Positions 11,797 to 64,000 of a DNA stretch of 64,000 bases are shown here, one piece after another. Each line of letters starts with the position of its first letter. The stretch's first letter is position 1. The stretch comes from Psococerastis gibbosa. Taxonomy: Eukaryota; Arthropoda; Insecta; Psocodea; Psocidae. The stretch is taken from NCBI GenBank assembly GCA_963971405.1, contig OZ020490.1:6000874-6064873 (forward strand), written 5' to 3'. A program made the translations under genes and the position numbers. The notes below the pieces were generated by a model. It searched no databases. It worked only from the letters and a program-made list of their open reading frames with translations, and was not told where the DNA came from.

Positions 11797-11868
11797 GGAG
11801 ATGTGTGGAGATTGTGTGTAGAGAAATCAGTACTGGTCTCTGCCGTTTGGACATTAATAATCTCAAGG

Positions 11869-12144
11869 AGAGTTTTTGCGCAATTCTTTATTGAAAGGCG
11901 TACAATCACATCATGGCACCCAGCCGCATTCATTTTTTTTTAGTTATCAGTAGTGTTCAATGTTGCTGTCGCGATGGGTATTTCCAGTTGTTTCACACTT
12001 TTATTCGAAATATTTCTTGGCAGAAATATGTGTCGTAGACATAAATTATATGAAGAAATATGTGGAGATTGTGTAGAGACACCAGTATTGGTCTCTACCG
12101 TTTGGACATTAATAATCTCGAGGAGAGGGTTCGTGACGCTCTGA
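11869..12144 (+). pseudogene. Tandem partial duplicate of the IR 3' end
   Basis: About 250 bp downstream of position 11625 are repeated starting near 11869. The copy repeats the last membrane segment (VAVAMGISSCFTLLFEIFLG) and the basic tail. Upstream its frame is broken: a short T-run change before TTATCAGTAGTGTTC shifts phase relative to the IR. The copy reads past the position of the IR stop (HKLYEEICGDCVETP...), while the IR stops after HKL because of a small sequence difference. It has no start, signal or ligand-binding region, so it is a duplicated tail rather than a second gene. Confidence 0.8.
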
Positions 12145-17706: not shown

Positions 17707-17885
17707 GTTTCCTTGGTGTGTTTTAAATTTGATTTTATAGTAATTGTTTTTTGCGTTTTTTATATATTTGTTCAGTTTATTTCTATATCTATTGTATTCT
17801 TGCCTATACGCAGGATTTTTTGGATTATGTTTATGCTTTCTGAATAGTAAGTCCCGCTTTATTATTCCAATTTTTATTTCTTCCG

Positions 17886-18863: not shown

Positions 18864-19097
18864 TTGTATTTGTATTAGGCCAATCTGACGTTTACACTAA
18901 TTTGTCTAAGTGTTTTTCGTTTTCTATGACAATCGTAACACCAACACTGTGAAGACCCCTACTACGACAGTGACGCTGAAACCAATTATTAGTAATTTGA
19001 TTGATATTGGTATTCACAGAAGAAGAGTAGATTTTACATTGCATGCTGCACTCAAATTGGTTGTTTATTTTCTGTCGTGTCATGATTTTCGTGTTTA

Positions 19098-20632: not shown

Positions 20633-21230
20633 GCATGATCTTGGAGTCGGAACCCAGACCACAATTTCAGCTGAAGTAGACTCTGGCTTGTGTGCACCAA
20701 CTCATTTGATGTAATGACCATAACAGATCTCCCAGCAGATGTGCTGCCTAGAATCCGCCTTTATGTAAAGGGTCTAATAATATAACAGGACATTTATTGA
20801 TCAGTTCTCGTTTACCACTGAGAAATGAAATAAATGGAATTTCATTCCAACCATTGCTGACGTGATTGTTGCGTTAAATGAACCACTCAAATTTTATGAC
20901 CCTCGTTTGTTGTAAAGTCGATTACATGAATAATTTATTAACAATATCATTTTTCGGACACGGAACATAATGATCCAGAATACCATTAAATAAAATGGAC
21001 AAATTATTCCAAACCATCTGAAAAGAGCACAAAGAAGACGCAATTTGTCAGCAGTTGCCAGGTGCTGGTAATTTTCACAGTTAAAAAATAAAATAAAAAT
21101 GAGATCGTGTCCGATTAAACCGGACGTATAATAATGGGGGCTTATAGAACAGAATGTCGACAAAAAGCAGGGGGGGGGGTTGGGCTGGGCCATCATTTAG
21201 AGCACCCCTTAAAATCGACATCTCCCTTAT
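20633..21230. other. Intergenic, no gene seen
   Basis: There is no recognisable coding or repeat structure apart from a G-run just before the satellite. Confidence 0.4.
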
Positions 21231-22790
21231 GGGATCTCATCAATTCCACCTATTGAACAATCATCGCGTATTGCATTGCACACAAATCATGTACAATTTA
21301 TCGGATACAATTTTCAACTGTTACAGGTCTACAAAAGGGGAAAACTTTGTAGTTGTACAAAATGGAATTTCGCCGGAAATATTGATCGTGGAGCAGAAAG
21401 TCTCAAGCTTCCTTGTGAGATCTCATCAATTCCACCTATTGAACAATCATCGTTTATTGAATTGCAAACAAATCATGTACAATTTATCCGATACAATTTT
21501 CAACTGTAATAGGTCTACAGGAGGGGAAAACCTTATAGTTGCACAAAATGGAATTTCGCAAGAAATATCGATCGTGGAGCAGAAAGTCTTAAAATTGACA
21601 TCTCCCTTGTGAGATCTCATCAATTTCACCTATTGAACAATCATCGTTTATTGAATTGCAAACAAATCATGTACAATTTATCCGATACAATTTTCAACTG
21701 TAATAGGTCTACAGGAGGGGAAAACCTTATAGTTGCACAAAATGGAATTTCGCAAGAAATATCGATCGTGGAGCAGAAAGTCTTAAAATTGACATCTCCC
21801 TTGTGAGATCTCATCAATTCCACCTATTGAACAATCATCGTTTATTGAATTGCAAACAAATCATGTACAATTTATCCGATACAATTTTCAACTGTAATAG
21901 GTCTACAGGAGGGGAAAACCTTATAGTTGCACAAAATGGAATTTCGCAAGAAATATCGATCGTGGAGCAGAAAGTCTTAAAATTGACATCTCCCTTGTGA
22001 GATCTCATCAATTTCACCTATTGAACAATCATCGTTTATTGAATTGCAAACAAATCATGTACAATTTATCCGATACAATTTTCAACTGTAATAGATCTAC
22101 AGGAGGGGAAAACCTTATAGTTGCACAAAATGGAATTTCGCAAGAAATATCGATCGTGGAGCAGAAAGTCTTAAAATTGACATCTCCCTTGTGAGATCTC
22201 ATCAATTCCACCTATTGAACAATCATCGTTTATTGAATTGCAAACAAATCATGTACAATTTATCCGATACAATTTTCAACTGTAATAGGTCTACAGGAGG
22301 GGAAAACCTTATAGTTGCACAAAATGGAATTTCGCAAGAAATATTGATCGTGGAGCAGAAAGTCTTAAAATTGACATCTCCCTTGTGAGATCTAATCAAT
22401 TCTACCTATTGAACAATCATCGCTTATTTTATTGCAAACAAATTATGTACAATTTAACCGAGACAATTTTCAACTGTTACAGGTCTACCTGAGGGGTTAT
22501 CCTTATAGTTTGCATAAAATGGAATTTTGCAAGAAATATCGATCGTGGAGCAGAAAGTCTTAAAATTGACATCTCCCTAGTGGGATCTCATCAATTCTAC
22601 CTATTGAACAGTATTGCAAAAAAAATCATGAACAATTTAACCCATACAATTTTCAACTGCTATAAGTCCCGCAGGTGAAAACTTTGTAGTTGTACAAAAT
22701 GGAATTTCGCAGGAAATATCGATCGTGGAGCAGAAAGTCTTAAAATTAACATCTCCCTTGTGAGATCTCATTAATCATTATTAAAAGGTC
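21231..22790. repeat. 194-bp satellite array, about 8 units
   Basis: Units begin GATCTCATCAATTCCACC at about 21231, 21417, 21611, 21805, 21999, 22193, 22387 and 22581, with a partial end near 22766. Landmarks inside each unit are AACAATCATCGTTTATTGAA, TGGAATTTCGCAAGAAATAT and CGATCGTGGAGCAGAAAG. The central five are almost identical, differing by one or two bases, while the first and last two are clearly diverged, as expected from unequal exchange. Short open frames recur in every unit on both strands and reflect the repeat, not proteins. Confidence 0.95.
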
Positions 22791-30029: not shown

Positions 30030-31165
30030 GATAAAGTTACAATGAGTCATTCGAATCTTGTGGAAGTCAGCAGAAGGTTTTCCCGCAAGTTTGGCAATGG
30101 TTTGGCCCATCCCACGACTTACCTCCCTGACCGGACAGAATGGAAACAAAGATTGAAACTGAAGAAGTAGAGGCAGCCTCCTTATCCCTTCTACGACCCT
30201 GATAAAGTTACAATGGGTCCTTCAAATCATGTGAAAGTCAGCAGAAGGTTTCCCCGCATGTTCGTGCCCTCGAGAAAAGATGGCGCGTCGCCAAACTATC
30301 ACTATGACAATGGTTTGGTTCATCCTACGACTTGCCTCCCTGACCGGACAGAATGGAAACAAATATTGAAACTAAAGAAGATGAAGCAGCCTTCTTATTC
30401 CTTCTACGACCCTGATAAAGTTACAATGAGTCCTTAAAATCATGTGGAAGTCAGCAGAAGGTTTCCCCGCATGTTCATGCCCTCGAGAAAGGATGGCGCG
30501 TCGCCAAACTATCACTATGACAATGGTTTGGTTCATCCTACGACTTGCCTCCCTGACCGGACAGAATGGTAACAAAGATTGAAACTGAAGAAGATGAAGC
30601 AGCCTCCTTATCCCTTCTACGACCCGTATAAAGTTACAATGAGTCATTCGAATCTTGTGAAACTCAGCAGAAGGTTCCCCTGCAAGTTCGTGCCCTCGAG
30701 AAAGGATGGCGCGTCGCCAAACTATCACTATGTCTATGGCAATGGTTTGGTCCATCCTAAGACATGCCTCCGTGACCGGACAGAATGGAAACAAAGATTG
30801 AAACTGAAGTAGATGAAGCAGCCTCCTTATCCCTTCTACAACCCTGATAAAGTTACAATGAGTCCTTAAAATCATGTGGAAGTCTGCAGAAGGTTTCCCC
30901 GCACGTTCGTGCCCTCGAGAAAGGATGGCGCGTCGCCAAACTATCACTATGACAATGATTTGGTTCATCCTACGACTTGCCTCCGTGACCGGACAGAATG
31001 GAAACAAAGATTGAAACTGAAGAAGATGAAGCAGCCTCCTTATCCCTTCTACGACCCTGATAAAGTTACAATGAGTCATTCGAATCTTGTGAAACTCAGC
31101 AGAAGGTTCCCCCGCAAGTTCGTGCCCTCGAGAAAGGATGGCGCGTCGCCAAACTATCAGCAGCC
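30030..31165. repeat. 213-bp tandem array, about 5 units
   Basis: The landmark GATAAAGTTACAATGAGTC recurs at about 30030, 30201, 30414, 30626, 30846 and 31059. The first interval is 171 bp and the others are 212-220. Other shared segments are AGCAGAAGGTTTCCCCGC, CTCGAGAAAGGATGGCGCG and CTGACCGGACAGAATGG. Alternate units share CTTAAAATCATGTG versus ATTCGAATCTTGTG, which suggests that a two-unit block was amplified. A 235-aa open frame on the minus strand (31079-30372) is a by-product of unit length close to a multiple of three. Confidence 0.9.
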
Positions 31166-41200: not shown

Positions 41201-44200
41201 GAATTCTTATTTTAATAAAATAAGCCAATCCGTACCTTTAGAACTGCCAATTCATCATTTCTATACGTTTTCGACGTATATGACGCCTGCATACGTCCAT
41301 AGAACGCCATGCGACACGAAGTTGTATTTCTATCTAGATCCAGTCGCGCCCCAATCGCCCATGCACTGTCAGCGATTACCACAGGCTTCTCGAATTCCAG
41401 CAGGGCAAATAAGCGGCGGGGCTCATCGTCTTTTTCACAACTTTGCACAAATTTGTACTCCCGTATTTTGTCAAATTCACCGCTTTCCTCACCTGAGAAA
41501 GTTAATGGTTAATTAGCCTTAGTGCACAAAATATCTTGGCTTGCCAACGGTATAAGGACCAGTAAGTTTCTGCGCACTTGGCTCGCAATCTAAATAGCTT
41601 TATTATGACTGTAGTTATCTTATAAAGAGAACCTTCACGCTTAATCTCAGTCACTACTTAGAGCTGCTCCATTGCATTGCTGTGGGTAGCATTTACCCGC
41701 AGGAACTTACTTTTATTTTTTCGTGTCCGAGAGATGGAGACTAGGCAAATCTTTGGGCCCAGTGCTGTGCCGTCTGGACGCCAGCTTCAGTGCAGTTCCA
41801 AAGGTCGTCCTGTGTACAGTTGGTCGGGCACAGGGTGCACTGCAGCAGGTGCTCAGTATCCTGTATTTCTGCTCCACATTCGCAGGATATGTCAGGGATG
41901 TGTAGCTGTCCCCACCTGGCTCGGTTCTTCTTTGTAGGTGCGACCCCAGTTCGGAGTTGGTTTAAGGTGGCCCACGTTCTCCAGTCAAGGTCTAGACCCG
42001 CATTTACCCGCAGGAAATATAACTCCTACTTGGCGGAAACCGAAGGTAAAAGGCTCGACCCAAGTTGGAAGACGTCGACTGAGATGGCTCAAATATTCAA
42101 GTTTTAAATCTAGTTTAAATGCCATTCGTGCTATTAGGCCTGTAGAGCCAGAACTATTTTCATTCTGAAGCGGTAACCACACTATGCCACCGTTGGCTGT
42201 TGGCACTGCCAATACAATGTGGACGTCGCTGTTGTCCGTTGGCCGCTGAGCCAACGGTTTCCCGATAAAAATCGCCAAAGTGTCGGTCTCCATCAAAGAA
42301 GGCCGCGGAGAGCGGGTAGTGGGGACGAGCCAACCGTTGGCTCCATGCATACTCCAACTATGACATCCTCCTCGGCTGAATGCCAACTCTCGGTGTATAT
42401 GGGAGGCCACCAATCAGATTTGCAGCGTTGGCTTTGCCAAATTGGCAGTGCCAACAGCCAAAGGCGGCATAGTGTGGACACCACTTTACATACCCGATAA
42501 ATCTTCAAAGAGCATCACCGTTGCAATCACAGTCTCATGTCCAATGGCCACGTGAAACCGCGCACGGGACGATATCGTGCTGCCATAGTAACGGACTCTA
42601 GTAAAATCAAAGATGGCCGCGTATACGGGAGCTAGAAGTTTGGGTTGTCCGACGAGCCCGCGCTCTAGCGTCTTCGGGTCGAACTGTGTAACGCAGATGC
42701 CCACTCGGTCACCCTGAGAGGCTTGGTTTACGGACTGACGAAAGACTTGGATAGATTTGACTTTCTTACATGCTTTGATGGCAGGAATTTCGACGTCGTC
42801 GCCTACGCCTATGGTACCTTGAAGGACTGTGCCTAAAAAAAGAATAAAGCTTGCTTTATAAAACATTATTACAAAGGCTCTCACGGCCGGAGTCAGATGA
42901 AATTACGTAGTCAGAGGAAAATCAAGTTGAGTTGGCAGCGAGCCCATCAGGGACCAGTATTTGCTTACCGCTTCAGCCTAAACAGTTGCTACCGTGCTTC
43001 CGAAATACAATGTTCGAAGTTTAGTGCCACTTTTGCAAAGAAGAGACTGGCTGGCACATTTTAACTACCCATCCCTATGGCGTCTTTGCTGGCGACATCT
43101 TGGAATAGGCGTACAGGAGAACACTACAGGCTACAGCTATAGCAAACTTCGCTAAAGAACTGGCTATGTAGTCGCATTGCCCTTGTCAGTTCTATGGACC
43201 CTCGAGGCCTAAGTCTATCGCAAAGACATTTACTACTACTACAACTAGTTCCACTGAAGATGCCGACGGCATATTGTGTTGAATCGTTTGGACGAACGCT
43301 TTCAGATTGAACACGGCCAATCAACCCAGACTCTCATGTTCCAATTAATAGACAACACCTCGTGTATAAGCTTCCTCATTATCCTCAAGCTCGCCAAAAG
43401 CCAGCCTTTCTTTCAAATCAAATCAAATATATATTTATTCCAATTTTTTCCAACAAGAGAAGTATACATAAAATGACAAAATTAATATTAACTTTAAATA
43501 CGCTAAAATACTTAAGTTATATTACATTCAATACTTTACAAGGAATTATAACCAGCCCAACTGTGTTTCCACGTGCTAGGGCCGGTACAGCATTTCAGTT
43601 TAACTCCGATTTGTTACGACAGTGTGCAGGTACTGTATGTGTTACGTATGTAAAAGTGTATATGCTAGAAAAGAGTTAATAGAAAAATAAGTTTTGTTCT
43701 TTAAGTTGAGTAAAAAAATGTTGATGAAAATATATTTTTATCGTTCTACATGGAATAGTAAGTTTTCTAAATCTGTTTTTTTCTCATGAAGCCATAAGTT
43801 TAGTAGGTGTTTAAAAGAATAATCTTTAATCGCCATGTGCGAAGCTATGAACACAATTGCCAGACAGGGAAGCCTTTTTTGTGATTCGAAAGTGTTAGGC
43901 GAGACTTATGCCCCTAAAATCAGCAATTATGGTTTGGCCCTTATTTTACCATTTAGCTGCGCCCTTTTCTATCGGGTCCTTCCGCTGTGCCTTCGATGAT
44001 GGTGTGTACCAGATTTTTGTGTCTTAATAAATATACTACTAATTCCGCTTTTCTACATTTGACATGACGTAGCAGCTGTCTCTCTTCTTCAGTAGCCTCT
44101 AGCACTCTTTAATTGGTCACGTGGTCCTTCCAGCTAATCCGTAGCATCTTTCTTTTACACTACATTTCAAATGCTTCAAGCCAGTTCAGTTCCTTATCTG

Positions 44201-47200
44201 CGATAGTCCAGATTTCACATCCGTATTATAAAACAATCTATACGCAGGTTTTAAGGAATAGATTCAAGATGCTTAGTCTTTTGTTGGCAGATCCCAGTAT
44301 CTTGAATTTTTTTTATTGAATGTCACTTTCGCTTGCTGAATACGGTTGTTTATTTCATCTACCGAGCTATATTGTCTTCAGCTATTGTACTGCCCAGGTT
44401 CTTAAAATACTTCACACTGGTTTTCTTTATTCTTGACCATCATGACTTTGGTATTGTATTTATTTATAGTCATACAACTCATCGCTAATATGTCTTTCCG
44501 AGTTATCAAGGCACGCTTCAATTTACCATCATCATCTGCGATAAGTGCATGTTATCAGCGAAACGTACCATGTCAATCTTTTCCCCATGCACTCTCACAA
44601 CTCTTACGTCATGCAGCGATTCCCTCATCTCGTTCAAGGCCATCTGTATGCAAATATTAAATAGAGGGTCGATTACGCATCACACCTACGAAATCTCATA
44701 AAATAAAAGACTGCAACCATCAGCAGTATACATAAAAAATTATGTAAAAAAAATGTAAGTACAGTCCACGCAAAATGAGAAAAGTATGGACATGGAATGT
44801 TTTGATCCTGTGCAACACTGTAAAAATATTCTTTGCACAATTTTTGTTATGCCTTGCATCCAATGCAACAAGGTAACACAAAATGGTGCAAGAAATATTT
44901 TTACAGTGTTGCACAGGATCAAAACATTCCGTGTCCATACTTTTCTCATTTTGCGTGGACTATACCTGTCAGCACAGTTCCTTTTCCCTGTATCCCAAAG
45001 CAGTGATCAACAGCAAACAGGAAAAGCGCACTGGCATTCCTCTCAGCCACGAAAGCCTTTTCTTTGAGACAATTTATGACGCCTTCAACGGAGCCTTCTG
45101 CAGCACTGGCACACACTATGGGACAACCCTTGAAGGATAGGCCATCCACAGTTGCCCTCATCTTCTTTTGAACTTTCTCCTCATGTTCCTACGACAAACA
45201 AATTTTACAATCTTTTAAGAACCATTTAAGAAATAAAAATAATAGTACTGGCGAGTTGTAAACAAAAATGAAGAACCAGTAGAATCCGGGTAGATGGGCC
45301 GCGGTCGAAATGAAAGTGGGCTTCCAAACGTTTCGTCAACATTTCGACCACGGCCCATCAGTCCGGATTCTACTGGTATTTCATTCGACTCCGGCCGTAA
45401 AAGCCTTTGCAGTTACATTGTTCACAAAAGGCTCACCTTTGATTTAAGAAGATCTACCTTATTGAGCACAACTATCATTTGCTTTCTCGTAATTTCAGCA
45501 AGGACTAAGCACTCGGCAGTCTGAGTTTGCACTCCTTTCGTGGCGTCAACGACTAGAATCATTAAGTCTATAATTTGAGCTCCACCTGAAAATTAGAAAT
45601 AAAATAAATATTGCACTATAGTAATAAAACTTTCTACATTTTCTGGCCATGCTTTGGAGGGCTTGTAAAACAGGCGGTCCCGGGCCTTCCTAGTTGAGTG
45701 TAAGAGAGGGCTTTATAGCCCCAAATCCGCTAGGGTGACTTAGTAATAGAACAAAAAGTCCTTATTTATTTCTTAATTTAAAGACATGTCATGATTTTTT
45801 GTATATTCAATACACGTTTCATTAATTGATAGTACTCTATAGTCTATTGAGAATAATAACTAACACCGAACCTTGAATAACTTAAGTTAATACCAGAAGC
45901 CATTAAAAACATCAGAACTTCCACCTAGGAAGCTAAATTACCTCTGGCAGGTCGAACCAAGAGATAGAGTGCACCAAGCGAAAGTGGCTTTGAAAAAAAA
46001 CTAAATTTTTTAGTCAAACAACATAAGCCTGGGAATAAGGAAACGAATGTTGAAGTCTCTGGTTTGGAGCATTGCACTGTACGGATGTGAAACATGGTGT
46101 ATAAGTGAGTAATACCAAAAAGAGAAACTCGAAATATTTCAGATGTGGTGCTATCGTCGCATGCTACAAAAACCTTGACAAGCCCATGTTACCAATGAGG
46201 AGGTTCCAACCAGAATTAGCGAAAGCAAGACTCTAGTTTCATCGACACATACAAGAAGAACTCGCTGGATGTGACATTTTCTACGACACGGGAATACCGT
46301 CAGCTACATCATAGAAGGAACCATGGAAGGCGTCAACCGACCTGGGCACCCAAGAAAAGAGTATCTGCAGCAAGTGATGGAGGATGTAGGGACAGAGACA
46401 TATGTGAAGCTCAAGAGGGCGTGCCAGGATCGAGGGGAGTGGAGGCATAGATGTCACAGGTTGCTACCAACCAGCAGCCCGACGGCTGCAATTTGTTGAA
46501 GAAGGTTTTGTCCATGCTTCGGAGGGAATGTAAAGCAGGCGGTCCCGGGCCATCCTAGTTGAGTGTAAGAGGGGTTTTTATAGCCCTAATTCTGCTAGGT
46601 TGGCTTAGTAATAGAACATTTTATTTATTAAAGCCAACACTGATGAATTCGGTAAGACATGTAACATTTGGAGATGTAGCAGAAACTATTTCACAAGGAT
46701 GTGTGAAGGATGTCTGCTAATCGACCACAATAGGAAGCTATTGTTAGGGACGCCTACCCATTCAGGTATGGATAAATGTAGTGCTAATAAGGAACCCACG
46801 TTCCTGTTCAAAATAAAAAATATTTCCAGAATTTTACAATTTACACTGATGCATTATTTCAGTAATTTTTTTCACATTCACTTTGTTATACATCGTCAAA
46901 GTAAAAAATAAAATAACTTTGTCAAGCATGACTAAAAAATATGTTTAAAGCAACTGATTTCAACACTAGGTCATCGTCAGTCTACAGGCATGCAAGCAAG
47001 ACTACATAAATTAACAAATAGAAAGGTCGTTTTAAATATATAAATCTAGTAATACTTGACAAAGTCATATTACCGATAACTGTGCTAATGAGAGAAGCAT
47101 GTCCAGGACAATCGACTAATGTAAACTGCAGTATTTTGTATTCTTTTAAATGAGGTGGAGCTTCCGTTTTGAATGAACTGAAGCCCAAGTCAATGGTGAT

Positions 47201-47983
47201 GCCCCGCTCTTGTGCCTGAGGATGCTTGTCGAAGCTAGCTGTGCTTGCCACCTGCAAAAATAAGTTTCTAAATTATTTATGGTTATAATACGTAATAATA
47301 CACTTGCCATTGGAGGTTAGAACGGCTAATTCACTCAGTAGCTTTAAGAAAATAATTAAAATATATCTTACATAACGTTTGACACTCTCTCCGGACTGGT
47401 AATGGTGAAGACAATGGACCCCCCCCCCCCCCCTCCGCAAACAATTTATCCTTTTTTTTTTCTTTTTTTCTCTTCCGTTTTATTTTTTATTTTTATTTTT
47501 TTAATAATTTTAATAATTAATAATAATATGTATTATTTTCAGGGTTAGCACGATAACAAGACTTTCTAGCCTCATTGTTCGCCTTTTGATACGTTAATAA
47601 AGACGTTTTTCATTTCATTGAATATTACTTTGAGTGCTTGTGCTAATACATGCAGTTGTTGTCTGCGAATATGAGCAGCGTAGAAACGCTAATTGTCTCA
47701 CTCTCCATACAATCACTTATATTATATATTATATAATCACAAATTCACTAGTCTGTGCACTTACGCAATACTTCGCTTAGGGCTAAACGGAGGGGTCTAA
47801 GCTAATCCAATTGCTTAATAAGTAGCACAGTCTAGTCTGTTCCATTTCAGTTCTTTAGTGCTTACATGGGGTGCCGGTAAGAAAATGCAAACGACAACTC
47901 ACCTGGCTCATTGCTTTGGCTAAAGATGTTTTACCAGAGTCAACATGACCTAACAACCCAACATTAATATTTAATGTCCCCAT
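38254..47983 (-). CDS. EEFSEC: Selenocysteine-specific elongation factor eEFSec, 8 exons
   Basis: This GTPase delivers selenocysteinyl-tRNA to UGA codons in selenoprotein mRNAs. Exons on the minus strand, in coding order, are 47983-47903, 47251-47074, 45585-45437, 45188-44966, 42832-42494, 41492-41236, 39657-39462 and 38396-38254. All have GT..AG borders and matching phases, giving 521 aa. The GTPase domain has GHVDSGKT (12-19), RGITIDLGF (43-51), DCPGH (74-78) and NKVD (128-131). Then follow the FAVDHCFGIQGKGTVLTG beta-barrel start, GDRVGICVTQFD, LFALLEFEKPV, and the eEFSec-specific C-terminus with VIESSFGQSGKFKV and HKRYIFDPNKRMLQ. No key residue is missing. EF-Tu or eEF1A is excluded by the C-terminal domain. 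The introns hold SINEs, LINE fragments and MITEs, two of which touch donors. Confidence 0.96.
39104..39356. mobile_element. Element C, solitary copy in eEFSec intron 7
   Basis: It runs from CCCGTGACTGGAGACC to CGCCGCTCCAGTT, collinear with the insert in the MITE at 2257. The terminal inverted similarity is short (CTGGAG / CTCCAG). It lies about 105 bases downstream of the exon 7 donor. Confidence 0.6.
39722..40960. other. eEFSec intron 6 sequence, no gene seen
   Basis: Notable only are the 17-G run near 40487-40503 followed by C-runs at 40515 and 40619, which could form a hairpin. The frames here have no family features. Confidence 0.4.
40960..41110 (+). mobile_element. LINE C-terminal scrap
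   Basis: ACGTGGAGCTGAAGAGAGCG and CCAGGATCGAGGGGAGTGG closely match 46400-46450 and encode the ELKRACQDRGEWRH-like end of a LINE protein. Confidence 0.6.
41704..41999 (-). mobile_element. LINE 3' fragment with 15-bp target duplication
   Basis: On the minus strand it encodes TWATLNQLRTGVAPTKKNRA and then HIPDISCECGAEIQDTEHLL, the LNxLRTG plus C-x-C-G-x-H zinc-knuckle end of a LINE protein. The 15-bp sequence GCATTTACCCGCAGG lies on both sides (41689-41703 and 42000-42014). The tail is AT-rich with TTTTATTTTTT on the plus strand. It lies in eEFSec intron 5. Confidence 0.85.
42172..42486. mobile_element. Palindromic MITE G abutting the eEFSec exon 5 donor
   Basis: Ends of the form AAG(C/T)GGT...CCACACTATGCC are followed on both sides by GGCTGTTGGCACTGCCAAT, in inverted orientation. 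There is no coding capacity. Its right end lies 8 bases inside intron 5, next to the donor GTATGT at 42493-42488. Confidence 0.72.
42833..44039. other. eEFSec intron 4, 3' part
   Basis: It contains fragments of the AAACG repeat (42865-42900, 43240-43310) and an AT-rich stretch from about 43400 that may be a LINE 3' region. No gene is seen. Confidence 0.4.
44040..44690 (-). mobile_element. Degenerate LINE RT C-terminal region
   Basis: Across shifting minus-strand frames it reads as NTKVMMV, a GQYNS..YSSVDEINNRIQQAK segment, YGCEIWTIADKEL and EAFEMKCKRKMLRISWKDHV, in the order typical of the region after FADD in RTE/CR1-like LINEs. Many stops are present. Confidence 0.65.
44764..44960. mobile_element. 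Palindromic MITE B, intact, at the eEFSec exon 4 donor
   Basis: Two arms of about 75 bp (GTCCACGCAAAATGAGAAA through TGCAACACTGTAAAAATATT) form a hairpin. The right end meets TA at 44961-44962, and the exon 4 donor GT lies at 44965-44964, so the intron begins GTATA and then the MITE. Confidence 0.85.
45260..45410. repeat. Short palindrome of the AAACGTTTCGTC repeat
   Basis: CCAGTAGAATCCGGGTAGAT and its inverse TCCGGATTCTACTGG surround GACGAAACGTTTGG-type sequence in eEFSec intron 3. It is related to 14060-14310. Confidence 0.6.
45637..45775 (+). mobile_element. 5'-truncated SINE
   Basis: The body from TACATTTTCTGGCCATGC to the AACAAAAAGTCCTTATTTAT tail is present and the tRNA head is absent. 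It lies in eEFSec intron 2. Confidence 0.75.
46020..46500 (+). mobile_element. LINE C-terminal fragment, frameshifted
   Basis: Plus frames encode MLKSLVWSIALYGCETWCIS, then RRMLQKP, and near the end RKEYLQQVMEDVG and LKRACQDRGEWRHRCHRLLP, a standard order for the end of RTE/CR1-like proteins. It is disrupted by stops, in antisense to eEFSec, in intron 2. Confidence 0.72.
46510..46640 (+). mobile_element. 5'-truncated SINE next to LINE fragment
   Basis: Only the body (ATGCTTCGGAGGGAATGTAA) and tail (TAGTAATAGAACATTTTATT) are present. It directly follows the LINE fragment. Confidence 0.7.
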
Positions 47984-48967: not shown

Positions 48968-51900
48968 ATGGCTGGAGAAGTGAGGAAGTCAAAACAGACC
49001 ATCCCAATCCTTTGCAAAGTCGTCGAATTGGTAAGTTTAGCAAAAATTGGGTAAGGTTTGGAAGCGTACCTGCCACGCCTTTCTGCTTGTTTACATTTAA
49101 TTTTCGTTATATTTTGTAATTTTATGAAAATCCTAAGCGAATTTATAGGTCTTCTGTATGTGGTTTTGTACAATATTATTAATTTAAAAGCTGGTTGATA
49201 CGTTGACAAGTATAAGATAAGTCTAAAACAGGATTTATTGTGTTTGTGCCTAACCTAAAAATGAAGTGCTGGTCGTTGATTTGACATGATTCATTACGCT
49301 TAATTGCAGGCCTAAACAATGCAAATGACCACTCATACAGTAATAAAAGCATTGCACATTAGTCTAGAAACTTAAAACCTGTTTCATGGTTCAAATTTAA
49401 TGTAACGTCAAAAGAAACGCTGATACTACAATATGTTATATTGGTCTATGCTATGACTACGACTGTCTTTTGACCACTGTTTAATTTGGGATGTTGTGGT
49501 CTGCAACCGGCTTCTCCATTGAGTTTCGTACGGAAACAATACAAATAATGTCCAAAATCCATGGGGTTGTAGGCCTGGGTCCATGAAAAGTCCTAACTAA
49601 CTAACGTAATAGCCCTTGGGGGGCTAAAGTACGCCTTTTTCGAAGTTATTCATTCACTAATTAGTGTGTGGTTTTTTTAGTGCCTTACAATCGTTATCGT
49701 CGGGCTGATAGTTGATCCTACCAACAGTGGAATTCTTCGGTTTGATCAAAACCATTCGGGGATAGTCTACGTGTCATGGCCGGGCTACATTCTCATCAAC
49801 ACAATTCTTCTCATAGGTTACGTCATCGGCGACAGAATTCCGAAAAGAACGGTAAGTTGTTTATAATTATTATTGTATACAAGCACAGCTGCTGGAGATC
49901 CAAGAGGGATGCGTATCCGTAAAAATGATAAGGGCTACGCGATATACCAAGTACCTACGATAGTAGCCGAAATCAAAGGAAAAAATGGCGCCCGTACTGT
50001 CGTACCCTACATGGCGGAGCCTGAATAGGCTAAGAACGGGGGTCACAAGATGCCGTGCGAACTTGTGTAGGTGGGGACTGGCGGAGGTCCCAACTTGCGA
50101 GTGCGGACAAGTGCAGGACGACGGTCATCCAGGCCGCAACGTTTTGGATCAACGTGTCCTAGGCCCGGACACGTTAAGTAAGTAAGCCGAAATTAAGAGA
50201 GCCCGCATCAGTTGGCTAGGGCACGTGGAACGAATGCCAGACAATAGGGCTACAAGAGCAGTCATACACAAGGTGCCCCATGGGAGAAGACGAGTGGGAC
50301 GAGCACAGATGCGATAGCTGGACAACGTCGAGGTGGATTTAGTGATCCTTGGTGTCGATGACTAGCGTAGGAGAGCGCAGGCTACCGCGATGTTGCAGAA
50401 CAAATGCCAAGGAGTAATTAAGTAAGATTGAGATCCTCTTCAAGCTGAGTCCAAAATAGGGCACCTAAAGTATTCACTGCTCAAATTATATCGCTGGAAA
50501 TTCAGGTATTAGACTGCATGGTGAGGTAAGCCCTGATACCCATCAACAGCCTTCATTCCGGTGTAAGTACCTAGCTTCTATTCACCTATCTCAGTATCAT
50601 TCGTATTTTATAAGGGTAGTTTAAAATAAGAAGTCAAGGGTCCTATGAGTATCGTAAGATCAATTTCGGTCCGGGTGTGGAGCATTCTAGGGCCATAAGT
50701 GGTAGCTCTGGTGGTCACAATCTCAACGATTGTTTTGCAGCAACTCCCTGCATATCATCCTCCAGCTCTCTCGGTCATCAGCTCTTGGTACGTTCGAGCT
50801 CTTGTGTCCTCTTTCAGTTGATCCATGAATTCCTCCTTTGGCTGTCAGCTCTATGCTTATTATGCAATGTATTTAAGCGTTATGTAAAGTTGTAGACCAT
50901 CCCCAGCAACTGTACTCGCTGTAGTAGCTTGCCGAATGGCCACAGGACAGACCACAGCCATCTCCACAGAAAGGGAAGAAAACGCTCCTCTTCGTTTGTT
51001 ATCTAATTGCTCCATTACATTTTTAGTAGGGCTCTATATTAGACAGGTATTGTCATCCGCCATTTTGAATCCATTTTTAAGTCTGCTCTGAAAGCAAAGC
51101 ATTGGGTGTTTACCTATTTATTTTTAGAAATTTATCGTTATTTATTATCATTTAAAAAACGATCTACCAATTAGGGAAGTGTTTAATAAAAAAAAATACT
51201 AAACCACCGTGTTTTCGTTCTTTTCAATCTTTTACTTTCTTAACTTAATACTTCAATACTTGCCATATAGGAATTATAGGATACAAAATGGCGGATGACA
51301 ATACCCGGGTATATAGTGCCTTAATTTTTAGCATCTTTTTGTAACACCACATCTCACAGAGTTCCTACTCATTTTTGTCTTTTCAACGCATCTTGCCATG
51401 AAGAGAAATACTGCAAATTAAGTGTTTCAAACGGCCCAAATTAAAGTCAAATTTTCGATGTTAAATTAGATTCGAAGAACTTTTCTGGAGAAATTAGATT
51501 TTTTGTGTGTAGAATAAATAGCCTAAATGGCTCCTTATTCTTATTGTCTGCATGTAATCTTATAAATACACACCATTAATTTCACAAAGCATAATCTTCT
51601 AAATGCACACCATTAATTTCGCAAAGCAAAATCATCTAAATACACACCATTAATTTCACAAAGCAAAATCTTCTAAATACACACCATTAATTTCACAAAG
51701 CAAAATCTTCTAAATACACACTATTAATTTCAAAAAGCATAATCTTCTAAATGCACGCCATTGATTTCACAAAGCATAATCTTCTAAATATACACCATTA
51801 ATTTCACAAAGCATAATCTTCTAAATACACACCATTAATTTCACAAAGCATAATCTTCTAAATGCCCACCATTAATTTCTTATAGCATAATTTTCTAAAT

Positions 51901-52247
51901 ACACACCATTAATTTCACAAAGCATAATCTTCTAAATGCACACCATTAATTTCTTATAGCATAATCATCTAAATAAACACCATTAAGTTCACAAAGCATA
52001 ATCTTCTAAATGCACACCATTAATTTCACAGAGTATAATCTTCTCACTAGTGGGTGCATGTATTTTCATCGCTTCATCCGGCGTCTCTCTGGCTGATTGG
52101 GTCAAGACCCACAAAGAGGACGGCACTAACACCTTCTACAAGTTCGTTCAGCAGTACAACGACCAGACCATCGCTGCCGGCATATTGTCGCTGTTTACCG
52201 CTGTTGTCTTTCTGGTGGACGTCGTGCTGACGTTCAAGCTGGCATAG
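48968..52247 (+). CDS. Four-pass membrane protein, alternative isoform a
   Basis: It shares exons 48968-49030 and 49681-49851 with isoform b, then uses a terminal exon 52032-52247, giving 149 aa. The exon joins in phase 0 after an acceptor TTTCACAG and begins SIIFSLVGACIFIASSGVSL. It encodes its own TM3 and TM4 (ILSLFTAVVFLVDVVLTFKL) in one piece and ends KLA-stop. It aligns residue by residue with isoform b's two exons (FSLVG / FSFVG, DW near the loop, AVVFLVD / ALIMFID), so it is a duplicated cassette. Longer loop here (KEDGTNTFYKFVQQYND). Alternative use requires transcript proof; a decayed exon is unlikely because the frame and splice site are intact. Confidence 0.8.
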
Positions 52248-55200
52248 GATGAGGAGTCTAGAGCGGTGGTGAGTGTCTCTTATTCCGCGGCACCTACTGA
52301 AGATGGGGTGAAAAGTGACGAAACTGAACCGTGTTAAACTATTTGGAAGTTAAGGGGCATTTAGACCCCCCACTATCCACCTTTTAAGTGTAACTTCCTA
52401 TGGCTTCGGGTCAGGTTTACTCATACGAATGATTGTATGTTTCAGAAACTTGTCACTAGGTGTTTAATTACCACTGCTCTAGACCTCGGATGTTAATTGT
52501 TAAAATTATTTTATTTCTTATTAATTAGGCTTATATTTTTATTGCGTAGGCATTTTAGGATATGGCATTGAATTATTGAATTTAATTATTATTGTATAAT
52601 CTATGTATTTTTTAGCCCTTAAAATAGTGTCAAAACGGAATTGACGGTTTATAGATACTGAATATACTTGTACTTGTCTAATTTCAAATATTATATAGTC
52701 TAGGATTTATTCGAACCGTCCCATGCTTGTGTGTGTGAGTGAGTGAGTGAGTGTTTTAGTCTTACGGAATTTTTTTCTTTCGCCCTTGTATTGCAAATTT
52801 ATACAGTTTATACTATTTTTGTTGCTGACCTCTAGTTGAGTGAAAGAGAGGGCCTCATGGCCCTAACTCCGCTAGGGTGGTCTCAGCTACAATAAAGTCA
52901 TTATTTATTTATTTGTAGTATTCGGCCATTGTGAAAATGCAATTTTCTTTCTTTTCTTTCTATCTATTGTAAAATCAACACAATCTGCATGATTTGGGTT
53001 GGTTAGTGAATTATGACCGTAGGCTAGGTAGCTAAAATTAACTGTAATTTCCACAAGTACTGTATGTACATAAGTTACTTTTTTTGTAATGGCCTTGCAT
53101 TAGAATGTTGTATGTAACTGATGGCTGCGCATTATTTTCTTAACCTGCATGTAACCCTCGAAAGTTCTCAGTACTAGGAGTTCAAGGTTTCCCATTTTTG
53201 CCTACATTACCCTACCTTAGCCGTTCTTCAAAGTAGCTGAGCTTAGTAATGCCTTATGGTCTCACAGGTGAAGACGCGAAAATCTCTGGTCTGCACCTCG
53301 TCGTGGTGAAGATGGGAGCGCGTGATGAGGACTCAACAAATAGGGGGCTGAGTTTGAGCCGGGAGAAGCGAAAAACAGTATTTTCTGTGCAGGGCACTCT
53401 AAAAGAGGCATTACAGGAAAAAGCTGTTGGAAGAAAAGAAACTCAATGAGGTCTAGGCCTGGCAGAAGGTCCTCTCTCATGACGACTCCTCGATTGAGGA
53501 TGTTCTGGTCAGTAATATGGCCGGCAGTCGCGTTTTTTAAATAAATAATTAATTACTTTTTGTTCTATTGTATTACTAAGCCCTCTCTTACACTCAACTA
53601 AGAAGGCCCGGGTCCACCTGCTTTACATGCCCTCCGAAGCATGGCCAAAAAATGTAGCAAGTGTAGGACATGAACCAACATGACCTGACAAGTTTTTTGC
53701 CATCTGCATAGTAAAAAGAAACACCATTCCAGAATTATTTATAGTCACTTAGACCCATCTGGAATTAAAACGACGCCATTGAAGCATCAATTTATCTGCT
53801 TCATTCGGTTAAATTGAAGATGTGAGCTTATGACCCGGCTATATTAGTCTAGCGTTCATGAAACGGTCTATAAAGCATATGGGTTGGCTGATTCACATTC
53901 GAGAACTGTCTGAAATGGGTCCACACTCCAGTGTAGACGCAATGAATGAATGATGAATGAAAGTCAAGACATGTAGAGCAGTGGTACGGACTCCGACTTT
54001 CACCCGAAAGGTTGTTGGTTCGAGTACCACACTTGATACATTTTCTGGCCATGCTTCGGAAGGCATGTAAAGCGGGCGGTCCGGGGTCTTCCTAGTTGAG
54101 TGTAAGTGAGGGCTTTATAGCCCTAACTCCGCTAGCTTGGCTCAGTAATAGAATAAAAAGTCAATACCTGTATGTATGAATGTATGTAAGCGCAGTCATG
54201 GTTGCGTCATCTATTAAGACCTGGTCCCACCATCGCTTGGAGAGTATCCTGCAGTAAGTGCAGTATTTCTCGCAGAGGCTTCTTAAACGATAGTGGGCAC
54301 TGTCCTAAGTCTGTCAACATAGTTGTTTTCTTAAATTGTTATTGTTGTTGCAGATGATGATGTTCTCATTTGTGGGCGGAGTTCTGTACATTGCAGCCGC
54401 CAGTGTTGCCATTCATGATTGGCGACAAAATCAGGTTTGTAAATTTTATGGGGAGAAACCTTACGGGTGTTGATTTTATTTTTTATCTTCTCTCTTAAAA
54501 AAAAAATCATTTATTTGTAAATAAACCTAAAGGCTAAAAGTCCAATAAAATGCAAATCTTAGCCGAAATTAGAGGATATAGAAAAAACTGGACTTGGCGA
54601 GATTCGAACCCACGATCTACACCTATCCGGGGCATCGTCTTAACCGCTGGATCATAAGCGAGACAAGTATAGTGCTACTAAATCCTCTACTTAGGCTATA
54701 TGCTCCTATTGACACGATTCGTATTCCTAAACAGGTTAGCACAGCTGTACAACTATCTAAGCGAACAAGTCTGTGGGCTTACTTTATTGCATAAAGGCAT
54801 TGCTTTATTCAATATACTGCAACCTTCTCGTTATAACCGAAATTAGAGGATATGGAAAAACTTCTTTATCTTGTAAGCACCCCCTTCAGGGTGTCAAGGG
54901 ACCCTCCAATGAGGTTCATTTGTGACGTCATTTTGTAGATGGCAGCACCAGTTGCTAAGATATCAAACCATAGACATAGTAAAACTATAGACTCATCGTA
55001 AACATTCGGGTTGAAGCCGCTTGACTTCGGCTATTTCCGTAGTATAGGACCAGATTGAGCCTTTTGCCATTTGATACCACGTTAACATTTTATTTTTTAT
55101 TTGATTATTTAAAGATTATTTAGAACGGAAAATCATGCCAACTAACCAGCAATATTTTTATGCAGAACTTGGAGTACTTTTAATTTAAATTTTAAACAAT

Positions 55201-57241
55201 ATATATAATAAATGTAAATAATAAAAATAATTATATATGAAACAAAAAAGAAAACTATAAAGAAACCATGTAATAAAACTATTAAATTTGAATTTCCCGC
55301 CAAAATGCACCTATAAGTAGGCGTGGTCATGGCTTCAGTCTTGCAGCACAGCCGAAATACGACATGGTGGCTCCATAGGTTTATTAGCTCCATGTATCAA
55401 ACCGTTGATTTTTCCATAAGCCTCAATAATATAATTAATAATAAAATTATTTTGTTTATGTATTATTTTAAAGTGATATTTTTCTATAAATCATGGAGAA
55501 TATATATATTAAATTATATGCAGTGAAATAAGGTCCAGGCATAGTAAAAACATTATAAAAAATATTAAAATAATTAATTAGATGCTAAGAGCTTAGTTTT
55601 CACATGCAAACGGCGGCCATTTTGAATAATATGGGTATCGGTTTGTCGTCAGCGAACCTAGTGACCAAAACTGTCCCTACAGAACCTCATTATACACCAT
55701 AAAATGGGAATGGGAAGTCTTAAATTAAAATTAATCTGTTTACCTTTTTAAGGCGGGGTTTCCACGCATGTCAATGGTAAAAAAGTAAATTCGTGTCGGG
55801 GTGGTACTACCCGTGGTACAGGAGTTTTCAGGTTGCATCAACAGCCTCCTGTTTAACCTATCGACAGTCAGGGAAGACTGCCGGGACCGCCGGCTTTACA
55901 TGCCCTCCGAAGCATGGTAGTCAGAAGATAAATAATTGTACCACTAGAAAATTTTGGCATTCGGGTGGGACTCGAACCAGTCACCTTCTGGATGATAGTC
56001 CGAGTCGTTACCTCTACGCCATTCTGACTACTATGTCAATGGTCAATGAGAAATATGAAATTGACGTTTTAGCAGACATTAAAGATATACTAGAAATGTC
56101 TGCTACCACGTCTAAACCATATTTCTCATTGACCATTGACGTATGTGGAAACCCCGCCTAACCCCAGATTAACCCAGTTAAGTACTCTATCGCCCATAGT
56201 TAAATTATTACCAAACGGCATTGTAGTAGTAGTAGTAGTAGTAGTAGTGTTCGTCGGGTTAATAACGACTTAGGCCTCATATTTGGGCCCGTAGAGCGAC
56301 CCCGACTTGACTGTCCTACGCCAGCCCATAGGACAGTGGACCTCCTGATTATAGTGGATTCCGAACCACTTGGGAAACACAGTGAAGTCACACGATTAGT
56401 TCGGAGGTGACCAGGACAAGTCCTACCATGTTTCCCTACCGGCACTGTGCACACGACCAAGTTATCTGCAGCTTTGAACCTGCTCTGGTCCGCTGAATTC
56501 AACTTGGTATGGCGGCCGGTTCTAACGGCATAGTAATTCCACTGATTATGTAGTGGCTTAATGTATAGGTGCCCATTGCATTGACCGGCTAGGGCTATTT
56601 ACAAAAACAATGACGTGGTAGCAGACATTCAAGACTTAGGTGGCGTTTCCACCGACCTCGCATTGCAGAATTGACGGAAATGTTTATTTTCATCTATGCC
56701 ATAGTTAAAATTGATCAATGATCATACAGTAAAATCACAAACAAACTAAAACTAAAAAATGGCTTCATGGGATATGTTAATTACAAACATTTTAATAGAT
56801 TTCTATAAAAAGAAAAACAAACATTTCCGTCAATGTCATTTGCAATCTGCAATGCGAGGTCGGTGGAAACGCTACCTAAGTCTTGAATGTCTGCTACCAC
56901 ATCACCGTTGTTGGAAATAGCCCTAGCCGGTCAATGCAATGGGCGCCATAGCGGACTAATGCGATGGCTGGGTGACGTCGAGACGGATCTGGCGACCCTG
57001 ACGATGACTCGTGAAGAAGTAAGTAAGTAAGGTATAGTATTATTAAAGCCTATCAAGGACCTCACGCTTTACACGTCCTCTTCTTTTTGTTCAGGTTACA
57101 CCGCAGGGGGGCCGCCCTAGTAAGCAGTATCAAGACATGACCATATCAGCGTCTGTTCTCGCCATCTTCACAGCACTTATAATGTTCATTGACACGGCAA
57201 TCACCGGATTCTATGTTGAAGAGGACGAGGAGCTGGACTAA
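48968..57241 (+). CDS. Four-pass membrane protein, long isoform b
   Basis: Exons 48968-49030, 49681-49851, 54354-54434 and 57095-57241 are all phase 0, with GT..AG borders. They encode 153 aa. TM1 lies about residues 13-33 (VVELCLTIVIVGLIVDP). A loop with a possible N-glycosylation site (NHS) follows, then TM2 about 51-73, TM3 in exon 3b (MFSFVGGVLYIAAASVAIHD) and TM4 in exon 4 (ISASVLAIFTALIMFIDTAI). The cytoplasmic tail is acidic (EEDEELD). Size and layout resemble small MARVEL-like or Snakeskin-like insect tetraspan proteins of epithelial junctions, but I cannot assign a family firmly. Introns 2 and 3 hold SINEs and MITEs. Confidence 0.85.
49985..50430 (+). mobile_element. LINE C-terminal fragments in intron 2
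   Basis: 49985-50180 encodes WRSLNRLRTGVTRCRANLCR and then CECGQVQDDGHPG, the LNxLRTG plus zinc-knuckle end of a LINE. 50183-50430 encodes a second type, ISWLGHVERMPDNRATRAVI followed by HGRRRVGRAQMR. Two different LINE ends lie side by side, separated by AAGTAAGTAAG. Confidence 0.7.
51026..51323. mobile_element. TIR MITE D, copy 2
   Basis: It is an inverted-orientation copy of 33371-33670. The terminal inverted repeats contain TATTGTCATCCGCCATTTTG and CAAAATGGCGGATGACAATA, longer and cleaner than in copy 1. Confidence 0.75.
51545..52031. repeat. 37-bp minisatellite ending in a splice acceptor
   Basis: About 13 units of the form CATAATCTTCTAAAT, then GCACACCATTAATTTCACAAAG, run directly into exon 3a. 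The last unit is TTAATTTCACAG / AGTATAATCTTCT, where the slash marks the functional acceptor. The array therefore repeats both the intron end and the first dozen bases of the exon. Other units end in CACAAAG and would be weaker acceptors. Confidence 0.93.
52832..52915 (+). mobile_element. SINE 3' end in the isoform a 3' region
   Basis: Only the 3' part (CTAGTTGAGTGAAAGAGAGG to TTATTTATTTATTTG) is present. Confidence 0.7.
52891..52896 (+). terminator. Candidate poly(A) signal supplied by SINE (isoform a)
   Basis: AATAAA 644 bases after the isoform a stop is the first canonical hexamer I find in this 3' region, and it lies in the SINE tail. Confidence 0.35.
53232..53460 (+). repeat. Dispersed repeat E, copy
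   Basis: It is collinear with 25688-25960 (see that entry). Confidence 0.55.
53535..53690 (-). mobile_element. SINE, minus strand, partial
   Basis: The body and a decayed B box (GGTTCATGTCCTACAC on the minus strand) are present. It forms an inverted pair with the plus-strand copy about 270 bases further on. Confidence 0.7.
53963..54170 (+). mobile_element. SINE, full length
   Basis: It has head, B box (GGTTCGAGTACC, one change), body and a TATGTATGAATGTATG tail. It lies about 185 bases upstream of exon 3b. Confidence 0.8.
54575..54665 (-). mobile_element. tRNA-like SINE head of a second family
   Basis: The minus strand reads TGATCCAGCGGTTAAGACG (A-box-like) and, about 35 bases on, GTGGGTTCGAATCTCGCC (B box). 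Acceptor-stem halves do not pair, so this is not a working tRNA gene. AACCGAAATTAGAGGATATAG-like sequence beside it recurs at 54835. Confidence 0.45.
55751..56158. mobile_element. Palindromic TA-MITE split by a SINE
   Basis: The ends are AGGCGGGGTTTCCACGCATG and its inverse, flanked by TA. The core AGCAGACATTAAAGATATAC / AAATGTCTGCTACCACGTC is kept. The left arm is interrupted at 55779 by a SINE, so the palindrome resumes at 56033. Confidence 0.82.
55779..56032 (-). mobile_element. tRNA-derived SINE variant with 11-bp target duplication
   Basis: ATGTCAATGGT occurs at 55768-55778 and 56033-56043. The minus strand has an A-box-like GGCGTAGAGGTAACGACTC and a B box GGTTCGAGTCCC. The body retains TGCTTCGGAGGGCATGTAAA but differs elsewhere from the main SINE, so it is a separate subfamily. 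Confidence 0.82.
56325..56515 (+). repeat. Interspersed repeat family A, young subfamily
   Basis: It is nearly identical to 7700-7905. A (GTA)n microsatellite precedes it at 56224-56247. Confidence 0.7.
56568..56948. mobile_element. Nested palindromic MITE composite 3
   Basis: The outer ends GGTGCCCATTGCATTGACCG and GGTCAATGCAATGGGCGCC flank an inner element with ends GGTGGCGTTTCCACCGACCT, in the same plan as 33986. The inner AT-rich sequence is inverted relative to that copy. Confidence 0.82.
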
Positions 57242-61649: not shown

Positions 61650-63280
61650 CTAGTAAGGCACGTGGATATTGTTATTGGAGCGCTTGTGGCAGCAGGACCG
61701 GCAGAGCAGTACCAGACAGACGACAGCAAAGCCGATACCTCCAGTCGCACCCACTGCTACAGCCACCCAGCTGTCCGACAGTTGCTCAGATTCTGTCTTG
61801 GCGCAGAACTCGGGCAATTCGTCTTTGCTGGGACCACCTGGAAAAGAATTTTTAATTTTACTACAACCAAAAGGAGAGGACATTAAAATAAAGGCGGCTG
61901 CGATGATGTTCAAACACGAATAACATTCCAATAGAAGATAAGTAGGGACCGGACTTGAATATAAGTTAGGAAGACCTTTGGTGGCATTGATAGCGAGAAG
62001 CCAATGAGACTGCAGTAGTTCGGGCATGTAAAACGAATGTACATAACAGCAGGTGCGAAAGAAACAGAAAGAGCGAACACGAAGAAAGAGGCAGAAACCA
62101 GATTGCGGGCCACCTCAGCAGAGTGGGGCTAGTACTTTAGGAAATGGAGATGATGACAACTCACCTGTAATATTAGGACAATTTGCAACTCCATTGCAGA
62201 CAAGGCTAGAAGGAATGCAGAACTCTGGTTCCCCAGGACACGCGAAGTCACATCCTTCGTTGTTCTGTAACAATACCGCAAAATACCATAATTTATTACA
62301 GGACAAGAGCGTCTTTCCACGGTTGCACAGCTTCGAATAGCCTCCGTGCCAAGTACGGGCTAAGGTAAAATAAGAGTCTTCACTCTCCCAGATCAATATT
62401 GCTGTTGCTGGCCTTTTTGACTTTATCAACTTACCTCCAACTCAGTGAGGCGCGAGGTGACAAGACTAGCGGCACTACGGTCCATATGGAAGAGCTCGGT
62501 CCACGCAATCTTGAAGGCAGCGCGGGCAGGGGTCCCACTCCCTTGGAATTCGACGAAGACGACCTTAGGGTCGCCAGGCTTTAGCCCTTCCCCCAGCTCG
62601 GTGCTCGTGAGAATGGGCATTTCTTTTAGGGCACTCACGTTCTCCCCACACACGGTGAGGATGGCGTCCTGCTTGCCTACAAGCAAACAAGGAATTGTGC
62701 AGGTGCATTTGAGAATGGAAGCCCGGACGCCATGGTCTTCACTCTTCAGAGGGCAAACTCCCTATGTCCAATCGAGAATGTGTGCTGAACCATCAAGAAG
62801 TCACACGAATGGGCCAGACCATCGCATCGCAATAATACTTATTGCAGTGTCAGAGTGTTGGAAAGAGATCGCTAGAGAGCTCCCTCTACCTATCTGTAGT
62901 CTGGAACCTAGACCTAGACTCTCGGTTGTAGACAGGTTACTTGGGGTTATACCCGGTATACTAAAATATACTGCTTAACCTACTTGACGTTATTTGAACT
63001 TCTTAAAGGTAAAATGCCTACACAAAATTTTGAACAAAGATACATACCTGGCAGGTAGACCCTCAGCCTGCCATCATCACAACTTCTAGACGTGAACATA
63101 AACTTATCAAAATGCAGCCAAATGTCCCTGTTTTCATTGACGCGGATTTCCCAATAACATCTCAACGTTCTGGGCGGTTCCCCGAACCCAACGGCCTCGT
63201 AGTACGGGAAGTGGAGCTCTCCTTCAGTGGCTGGGTGAAGAACTGAAGGACCGCAAAGGGGTTCGTGGGCAAACTCGTAC
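61650..63280 (-). CDS. CUB + LDLa single-pass membrane protein, last four exons
   Basis: This is the 3' end of a cell-surface protein whose first exons lie beyond 64000. Exons in coding order are 63280-63048, 62676-62435, 62264-62165 and 61837-61650; all phases agree. The first two encode a CUB domain: LCGPSVL, LRCYWEIRV, CDDGRLRVY, LTVCGEN. The third and the start of the fourth encode an LDLa-like module with six cysteines (GCDFACPGEPEFC, LVCNGVANCP, then KDELPEFC) split by the intron. A membrane segment (VAVAVGATGGIGFAVVCLVLL) and a 16-residue basic tail ending HVPY follow. CUB-LDLa-TM order recalls Neto and LRP12-type proteins, but the tail is much shorter than theirs, so I give no gene name. 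Confidence 0.88.
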
Positions 63281-64000
63281 CTGAAATGTGGAAATAAAGG
63301 AATTTAACAATAATTTCCGGAGAAATTAAGATATGCAATTGTGTGAGAACCGGGTTATTTTTGTAAAACGCAACTTCTGGGAGTAGTAGCTCTTTCAGTT
63401 TATGGTAGGACTAAAAGAAAACCGGGATGGTTCGTGGGCAAACTCGTACCTGAAATGTGGAAATAAAGGAATTTAACAATAATTTCCGGAGAAATTAAGA
63501 TATGCAATTGTGTGAGAATCGGGTTATTTTTGTAAAACGCAACTTCTGGGAGTAGTAGCTCTTTCAGTTTATGGTAGGACTAAAAGAAAACCGGGATGGT
63601 TCGTGGGCAAACTCGTACCTGAAATTTGGAAATAAAGGAATTTAACAATAATTTCCGCAGAAATTAAGATATGCAATTGTGTGAGAACCGGGTTATTTTT
63701 GTAAAACGCAACTTCTGGGAGTTGTAGCTCTTTCAGTCTATGGTAGGACTAAAGGAAAACTGGGATGGTTCGTGGGCAAACTCGTACCTGAAATGTTGAA
63801 ATAAAGGAATTTAACAAAACTTTCTGCAGAAATTAAGTTATGCAATTGTGTGAGAACCGGGTTGTTTTTGTAAAACGCAACTTCTGGGAGTTCAGTCTAT
63901 GGTAGGACAATTTAGGCGAACCGAGGTGGTTCGTGGGCGAAAATGCGGAAATATAGGCATTTAATCATAACTCTGCGGAAATTAAATTATACAATCTTGT
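63261..64000. repeat. 169-bp tandem array containing a splice acceptor
   Basis: Units start GTTCGTGGGCAAACTCGTAC at 63261, 63430, 63599 and 63768, and in decayed form at 63929. The period is 169, then 161. The first unit overlaps the 5' end of the exon ending at 63280, so each of the next three units also carries CCACATTTCAG (or a near copy) plus the first 20 exon bases in minus-strand sense. The array runs off the window. Confidence 0.93.

Follow-up and report, generated by a model that had tools for sequence, protein, structure and literature searches.

We describe what appears to be a single gene for a MARVEL-type tetraspan protein in which the 3' half, encoding the third and fourth membrane spans (TM3-TM4), is an old and well-formed duplication that most likely gives rise to two proteins. 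The gene lies within a 64-kb stretch of DNA (the window; positions 6000874-6064873 of contig 15, in a genome of 409 Mb and 68 contigs), and its two homologous downstream cassettes, A and B, are each able to complete the same upstream half. The reading we favor, with a probability of roughly two in three, is that an ancient duplication in place produced the two versions of the TM3-TM4 half and that the choice between A and B is made at the level of splicing. Joining of exon 2 to cassette A would give a 149-residue protein (isoform A) with a short KLA tail, and splicing from exon 2 past A to the two exons of cassette B (B1 and B2) would give a 153-residue protein (isoform B) with an acidic tail. 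The switch would lie in the inclusion or skipping of A through its middling acceptor at 52032; when A is included, its own TAG would end translation, and the transcript could then either be spliced from 52269 to B1, leaving B as 3' UTR, or be cleaved within the intron, with the odds tilting slightly towards splicing.

The features of the gene are listed in Table 1. The initial annotation had proposed that exons 1 and 2 encode TM1-TM2 and that either A or B then supplies TM3-TM4 in phase 0, and the frames and borders read just so: all of the listed exons have GT and AG borders and are in phase 0 throughout. It had given only the end of exon 2, for which both ends are now placed. An intron is present in B alone (54435-57094), as had been noted, and A is uninterrupted. 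The earlier distinction between an outer and an inner half is loosely worded, the halves being N-terminal (TM1-TM2) and C-terminal (TM3-TM4 plus tail). The two cassettes share their phase and the alignment column at which they start, each immediately after an AG.

Table 1. Features of the tetraspan gene and its surroundings, in window coordinates.
Feature	Position	Strand	Content
Exon 1	48968-49030	+	ATG, N-terminus, start of TM1; 21 codons
Exon 2	49681-49851	+	Remainder of TM1, TM2, loop after TM2; 57 codons
37-bp minisatellite	51555-52044	+	13.2 copies; last unit is the predicted A acceptor
Cassette A	52032-52247	+	71 codons and TAG; TM3-TM4 in a single exon
Putative extension of exon A	52248-52268	+	DEESRAV if read on; its start is the counterpart of the B acidic tail
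Candidate poly(A) signal AATAAA, weak	52891-52896	+	644 nt past the A stop, within a dispersed repeat
Cassette B, exon B1	54354-54434	+	TM3; 27 codons
Cassette B, exon B2	57095-57241	+	Loop, TM4, acidic tail EEDEELD, TAA; 48 codons
Candidate poly(A) signal AATAAA	57485-57490	+	244 nt past the B stop

Splice sites were scored with frequency tables that are approximate and taken from general knowledge. On this scale the donors of exon 1 (TTG/gtaagt), exon 2 (ACG/gtaagt, phase 0, at 49852) and B1 (CAG/gtttgt) fall within the top 0.8%, 0.14% and 4% of 7047 GTs respectively. Among 7177 AGs, the B2 acceptor is in the top 0.13%, that of B1 in the top 1.6%, that of cassette A in the top 6.9% and that of exon 2 in the top 14%, such that the A acceptor is weaker than those of B1 and B2 but stronger than that of exon 2.

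Either product is predicted to be a MARVEL-type tetraspan. Isoforms A and B match the Pfam MARVEL profile over most of their length with 32.5 bits (E 1e-7) and 30.5 bits (E 4.3e-7), an assignment that is borderline because these scores lie 0.3 and 2.3 bits below the cut-off of 32.8; both exceed the cut-off of 25 for the Pfam profile DUF7775 (30.3 and 26.5 bits respectively). Cassette A on its own scores 17.9 bits against MARVEL with HMMER, on a scale that differs from that of the BLAST bits given below, and Pfam scans of exon 2 alone or B2 alone, fragments too short for the test, gave no MARVEL match. Kyte-Doolittle profiles contain four hydrophobic spans in both isoforms, with peaks at about 14-32, 48-70, 80-98 and 125-144, the weakest being TM2 with a hydropathy of 1.65. 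A sequence search for relatives of isoform A with solved structures returned a single match, to a peptidase (E 1.3), which we judged to be a chance one. In a prokaryote contig collection, none of 50 pattern-matching stretches encodes a relative of isoform B, as expected there. We also looked for DUF7775 relatives elsewhere in the same genome; the 26 weak matches are all below the cut-off, and 25 of them contain at least three in-frame stops and resemble a dispersed repeat.

The four exons of human MAL comprise 31, 56, 42 and 24 codons and are all in phase 0 (PMC8145151), and isoform B resembles MAL in having four spans, a length of about 150 residues and four phase-0 exons (21, 57, 27 and 48 codons). 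The second exon of this gene encodes 57 residues, and that of MAL 56. The third exon border is placed differently, about 21 residues before TM4 in this gene but inside TM4 in MAL, and MAL isoforms are described as arising by skipping of exons II and/or III (PMC8145151), not by homologous alternatives as proposed here.

The homology of the two cassettes is clear. With B as the query against the window, A is recovered with E 2.6e-11 (49 bits by BLAST; 35% identity over 75 columns), and the global alignment score of 105 (z 9.9) is reached by none of 2000 residue-class-preserving shuffles, in agreement with the earlier proposal that the cassettes align along their length. Exon 2 scores just 9 against A and 4 against B on the same scale, and the homology is therefore not a generic likeness of membrane segments. 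When isoform B was used to search the 409-Mb genome, all five matches were at this locus, namely its own four exons and cassette A, the latter (E 1.8e-6, 37%) being the sole match beyond the isoform B exons. The equivalent search with isoform A gave three matches, all to its own exons, and the B exons were not retrieved; the genome search thus acts as a filter, which distant MARVEL genes may escape. Neither the window search nor the genome searches revealed a third cassette.

The age of the duplication can be gauged from the 68 aligned codons, 23 of which specify the same residue. Identity at codon positions 1, 2 and 3 is 0.46, 0.72 and 0.32 respectively, and at conserved four-fold residues the third bases agree in 3 of 12 cases. 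Synonymous likeness has thus been lost while the protein pattern has been kept, from which it follows that the duplication is old and that both copies have been long constrained. This saturation under protein constraint argues against A being long dead, present use being a separate question. The open frame of A is weak evidence when taken alone, since shuffling the bases of A leaves the frame open in 227 of 5000 cases.

The predicted acceptor of A is embedded in a minisatellite, the unit of which consists of the last 24 nt of the intron and the first 13 nt of exon A. There are 13 full units, and in the 12 upstream of the last the AG is replaced by AA (10 units) or AT (2 units), suggesting that the array grew out of the A splice acceptor. 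Two units carry a TTATAG with scores of 2.13 and 1.58, compared with 1.75 for the real acceptor, and splicing at either of these decoys leads to a stop after 8 codons. Two observations count against the use of A: its acceptor ranks below those of B1 and B2, and two rival AGs of similar score are present in the array. The inclusion of the splice site of one ending within a tandem repeat is what is unusual here, and with an acceptor-born minisatellite the effect of repeat growth on a splice choice could be put to the test. We also scanned the first 400 nt of intron 2 against five 400-nt cassette regions for docking and selector RNA pairing and saw no excess: in none of the five region pairs was the best duplex stronger than the average of 12 shuffles by more than about 1 SD. 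In Drosophila PGRP-LC the 3' region is described as being chosen by competing RNA structures (PMC9013439), and within this limited 400-nt scan such a mechanism is therefore without support here.

The initial annotation had suggested that the choice is made by intronic polyadenylation against splicing. Its proposal of a single gene that can end in either of two homologous 3' cassettes is supported by the single TM1-TM2, the lack of a start in A and the matching border and phase. Intronic polyadenylation is a candidate for how the choice is made, but it is not required for two endings. The AATAAA hexamer occurs every 498 nt per strand on average, and one within 650 nt is therefore expected (P 0.73). 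The dispersed repeat in which it lies has AATAAA in two, and AACAAA in four, of the eight copies listed. A donor, GTG/gtgagt at 52269, is located 22 nt past the A stop and is equalled by 22 of the 7047 GTs on both strands; the chance of a donor this strong is about 0.004 within 22 nt of the stop and 0.017 within 100 nt, although both values are post hoc. The interval 52032-52268 is 237 nt long, so inclusion of A keeps the frame into B1, and with a strong phase-0 donor so close to its stop, A may be a stop-carrying internal exon spliced to B1. This is one of two ways in which alternative stop-coding exons are described as arising, and in Drosophila Mhc, as in the putative A, a stop-carrying exon can be spliced in ahead of the downstream coding end (PMC3228551); Mhc, however, is an established gene model and our proposal derives from the donor at 52269.

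In a sub-case of the favored reading, A would be a genuine terminal exon, with cleavage and polyadenylation inside intron 2 competing against the splice to B1. We regard this as possible but doubtful. The AATAAA at 52891 speaks for it, and human CapZ beta is described as having terminal exons that are homologous alternatives, with more than one poly(A) site (PMC3228551), but both the chance expectation and the repeat-family context of that AATAAA weigh against it, as does the strong donor just beyond the stop.

The two tails had been distinguished as KLA and EEDEELD, which is how they read, but the alignment runs on past the A stop. In this segment GCATAGGATGAGGAG and GAAGAGGACGAGGAG agree in 12 of 15 bases, an agreement found at one of 63,956 window positions and reached by 2 of 20,000 shuffles. 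Following a common F codon, A reads AAG CTG GCA TAG GAT GAG GAG and B reads TAT GTT GAA GAG GAC GAG GAG; the next 15 bases agree in one, so the likeness of the tails is short. By this alignment, the start of the B acidic tail has a counterpart beyond the A TAG, and one stop codon cuts it off in A. The DEE codons past the stop would fit a late-gained stop, some readthrough, or selection to keep a purine-rich splicing enhancer. In Drosophila, regulated readthrough has been described. To our knowledge, UAG followed by G, the context at the A stop, is not counted among leaky ones. The 29-codon open frame past the A stop was set aside as evidence, as 834 of 5000 shuffles are equally open.

The acidic codons past the A TAG would also fit a recent stop in a decaying copy. 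A would then be a dying cassette that has gained a stop (TAG, where B has GAG) and suffered growth of the repeat over its acceptor, with B alone being made in earnest. Such decay is consistent with the near base-for-base match of the DEE codons to B and with an acceptor lying among two decoys of similar score, but it is unlikely given that all 71 codons are intact, that the second half of the MARVEL match is kept and that the TAG leaves all four membrane spans in place; moreover, a short tail is sufficient in MAL, where it is described as 6 residues (PMC8145151).

Retroposition is another explanation for the lack of B's intron in A: part of a B-type mRNA, or of another MARVEL gene, would have landed in intron 2 in intron-free form and then been exonised. 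Age would hide any poly(A) tail, but the start of A coincides with the homologous exon border, where it has an AG and the same phase, and no other genomic place was matched in the genome searches, making this origin improbable.

Several observations bear on whether A and B belong to one gene. Exon 2 is the sole exon of the TM1-TM2 type detected in the genome searches, and within their sensitivity no second TM1-TM2 was found either there or in the window (next best E 0.18). No in-frame ATG occurs in the open frame of A (52002-52244, 81 codons). A therefore depends on a preceding exon that ends in phase 0, and none other than exon 2 was seen. Exon B1 starts with three ATG codons, such that a short B-only product is conceivable, if speculative. 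Between the A stop and B1, no hydrophobic frame is present on the plus strand among the three open frames of at least 45 codons, the size to which this list was confined (peak hydropathy at most 0.95). Two tandem genes, with A or B part of a neighbor whose TM1-TM2 exons escaped detection, are highly improbable on this evidence, even though tandem copies are described as a known source of false alternative exons (PMC3228551), the genome search was a first look in which isoform A missed the B exons, and the list of open frames began at 45 codons. An elaboration of the favored splice-level choice, to which we give only a very slight chance, is a repeat-tuned, three-way gene in which a varying array copy number would set how often A is included and occasional readthrough of its TAG would add a third protein form. 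In that event A would be joined through the 52269 donor to B1, and a six-span hybrid of about 232 residues containing both TM3-TM4 halves would be made alongside the two four-span forms.

Homologous alternative 3' cassettes are already known as a gene arrangement. Drosophila CG1637 has homologous alternative 3' sets with differing intron positions and is described as trans-spliced (PMC3228551), and the terminal exons of Drosophila pip fall into eight homologous clusters (PMC9013439). As described, these genes and PGRP-LC share with this one the use of common 5' exons with one of several 3' sets, but they encode other protein families. In CG1637, as in cassettes A and B, the sets are homologous despite unequal intron positions. 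Insect serpins such as PpSerpin-1 likewise combine one N-terminal body with C-terminal cassettes that have been duplicated, although PpSerpin-1 is described as having 21 C-terminal forms and yields soluble inhibitors (PMC10513286), unlike the two cassettes and membrane bundle here. No MARVEL gene with homologous alternative endings was among the matches listed in the literature searches.

If both cassettes are used, one gene would yield two membrane organisers that share their first half but differ in the second loop and tail. The two second halves may confer different membrane or partner behavior, and the pair would serve as a clean natural experiment on whether the first or the second half of a MARVEL protein determines its partners.

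Several other features of the window were noted. On the minus strand at 42486-47272 are exons of a eukaryotic selenocysteine-specific elongation factor, with two of the three submitted frames matched (euk_SelB_III, E 9e-11; GTP_EFTU, E 8e-9), and the lineage seems to keep its selenoprotein machinery. A 654-codon open frame at 9832-11796 on the plus strand has a weak ionotropic-receptor match (Lig_chan, E 4.5e-4), and its 3' end is inside a two-copy 255-bp tandem repeat at 11621-12127. The elongation factor and the receptor-like frame together suggest that the DNA is from an insect. Two long frames on the minus strand at 15907-18896 resemble, by eye, a non-LTR reverse transcriptase and endonuclease. 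Further tandem arrays are located at 21208-22775 (8.2 copies of 194 bp, with open frames running through), at 30095-31159 (213-bp units) and at 63260-63891 (169-bp units). The last of these overlaps the end of an open frame matching CUB, one of a group of minus-strand frames at 61650-63303 with matches to CUB (E 6.7e-5) and, weakly, to LDL-receptor class A (E 0.0017), along with a third that is unmatched; the CUB and LDL-receptor class A frames are perhaps exons of one gene. Within the introns of the tetraspan gene there are large MITE-like inverted repeats at 56568-56947 (102-nt arms, 93% complementary) and 51046-51305 (27-nt arms), and a MITE-like inverted pair of a dispersed repeat at 53578-54115.
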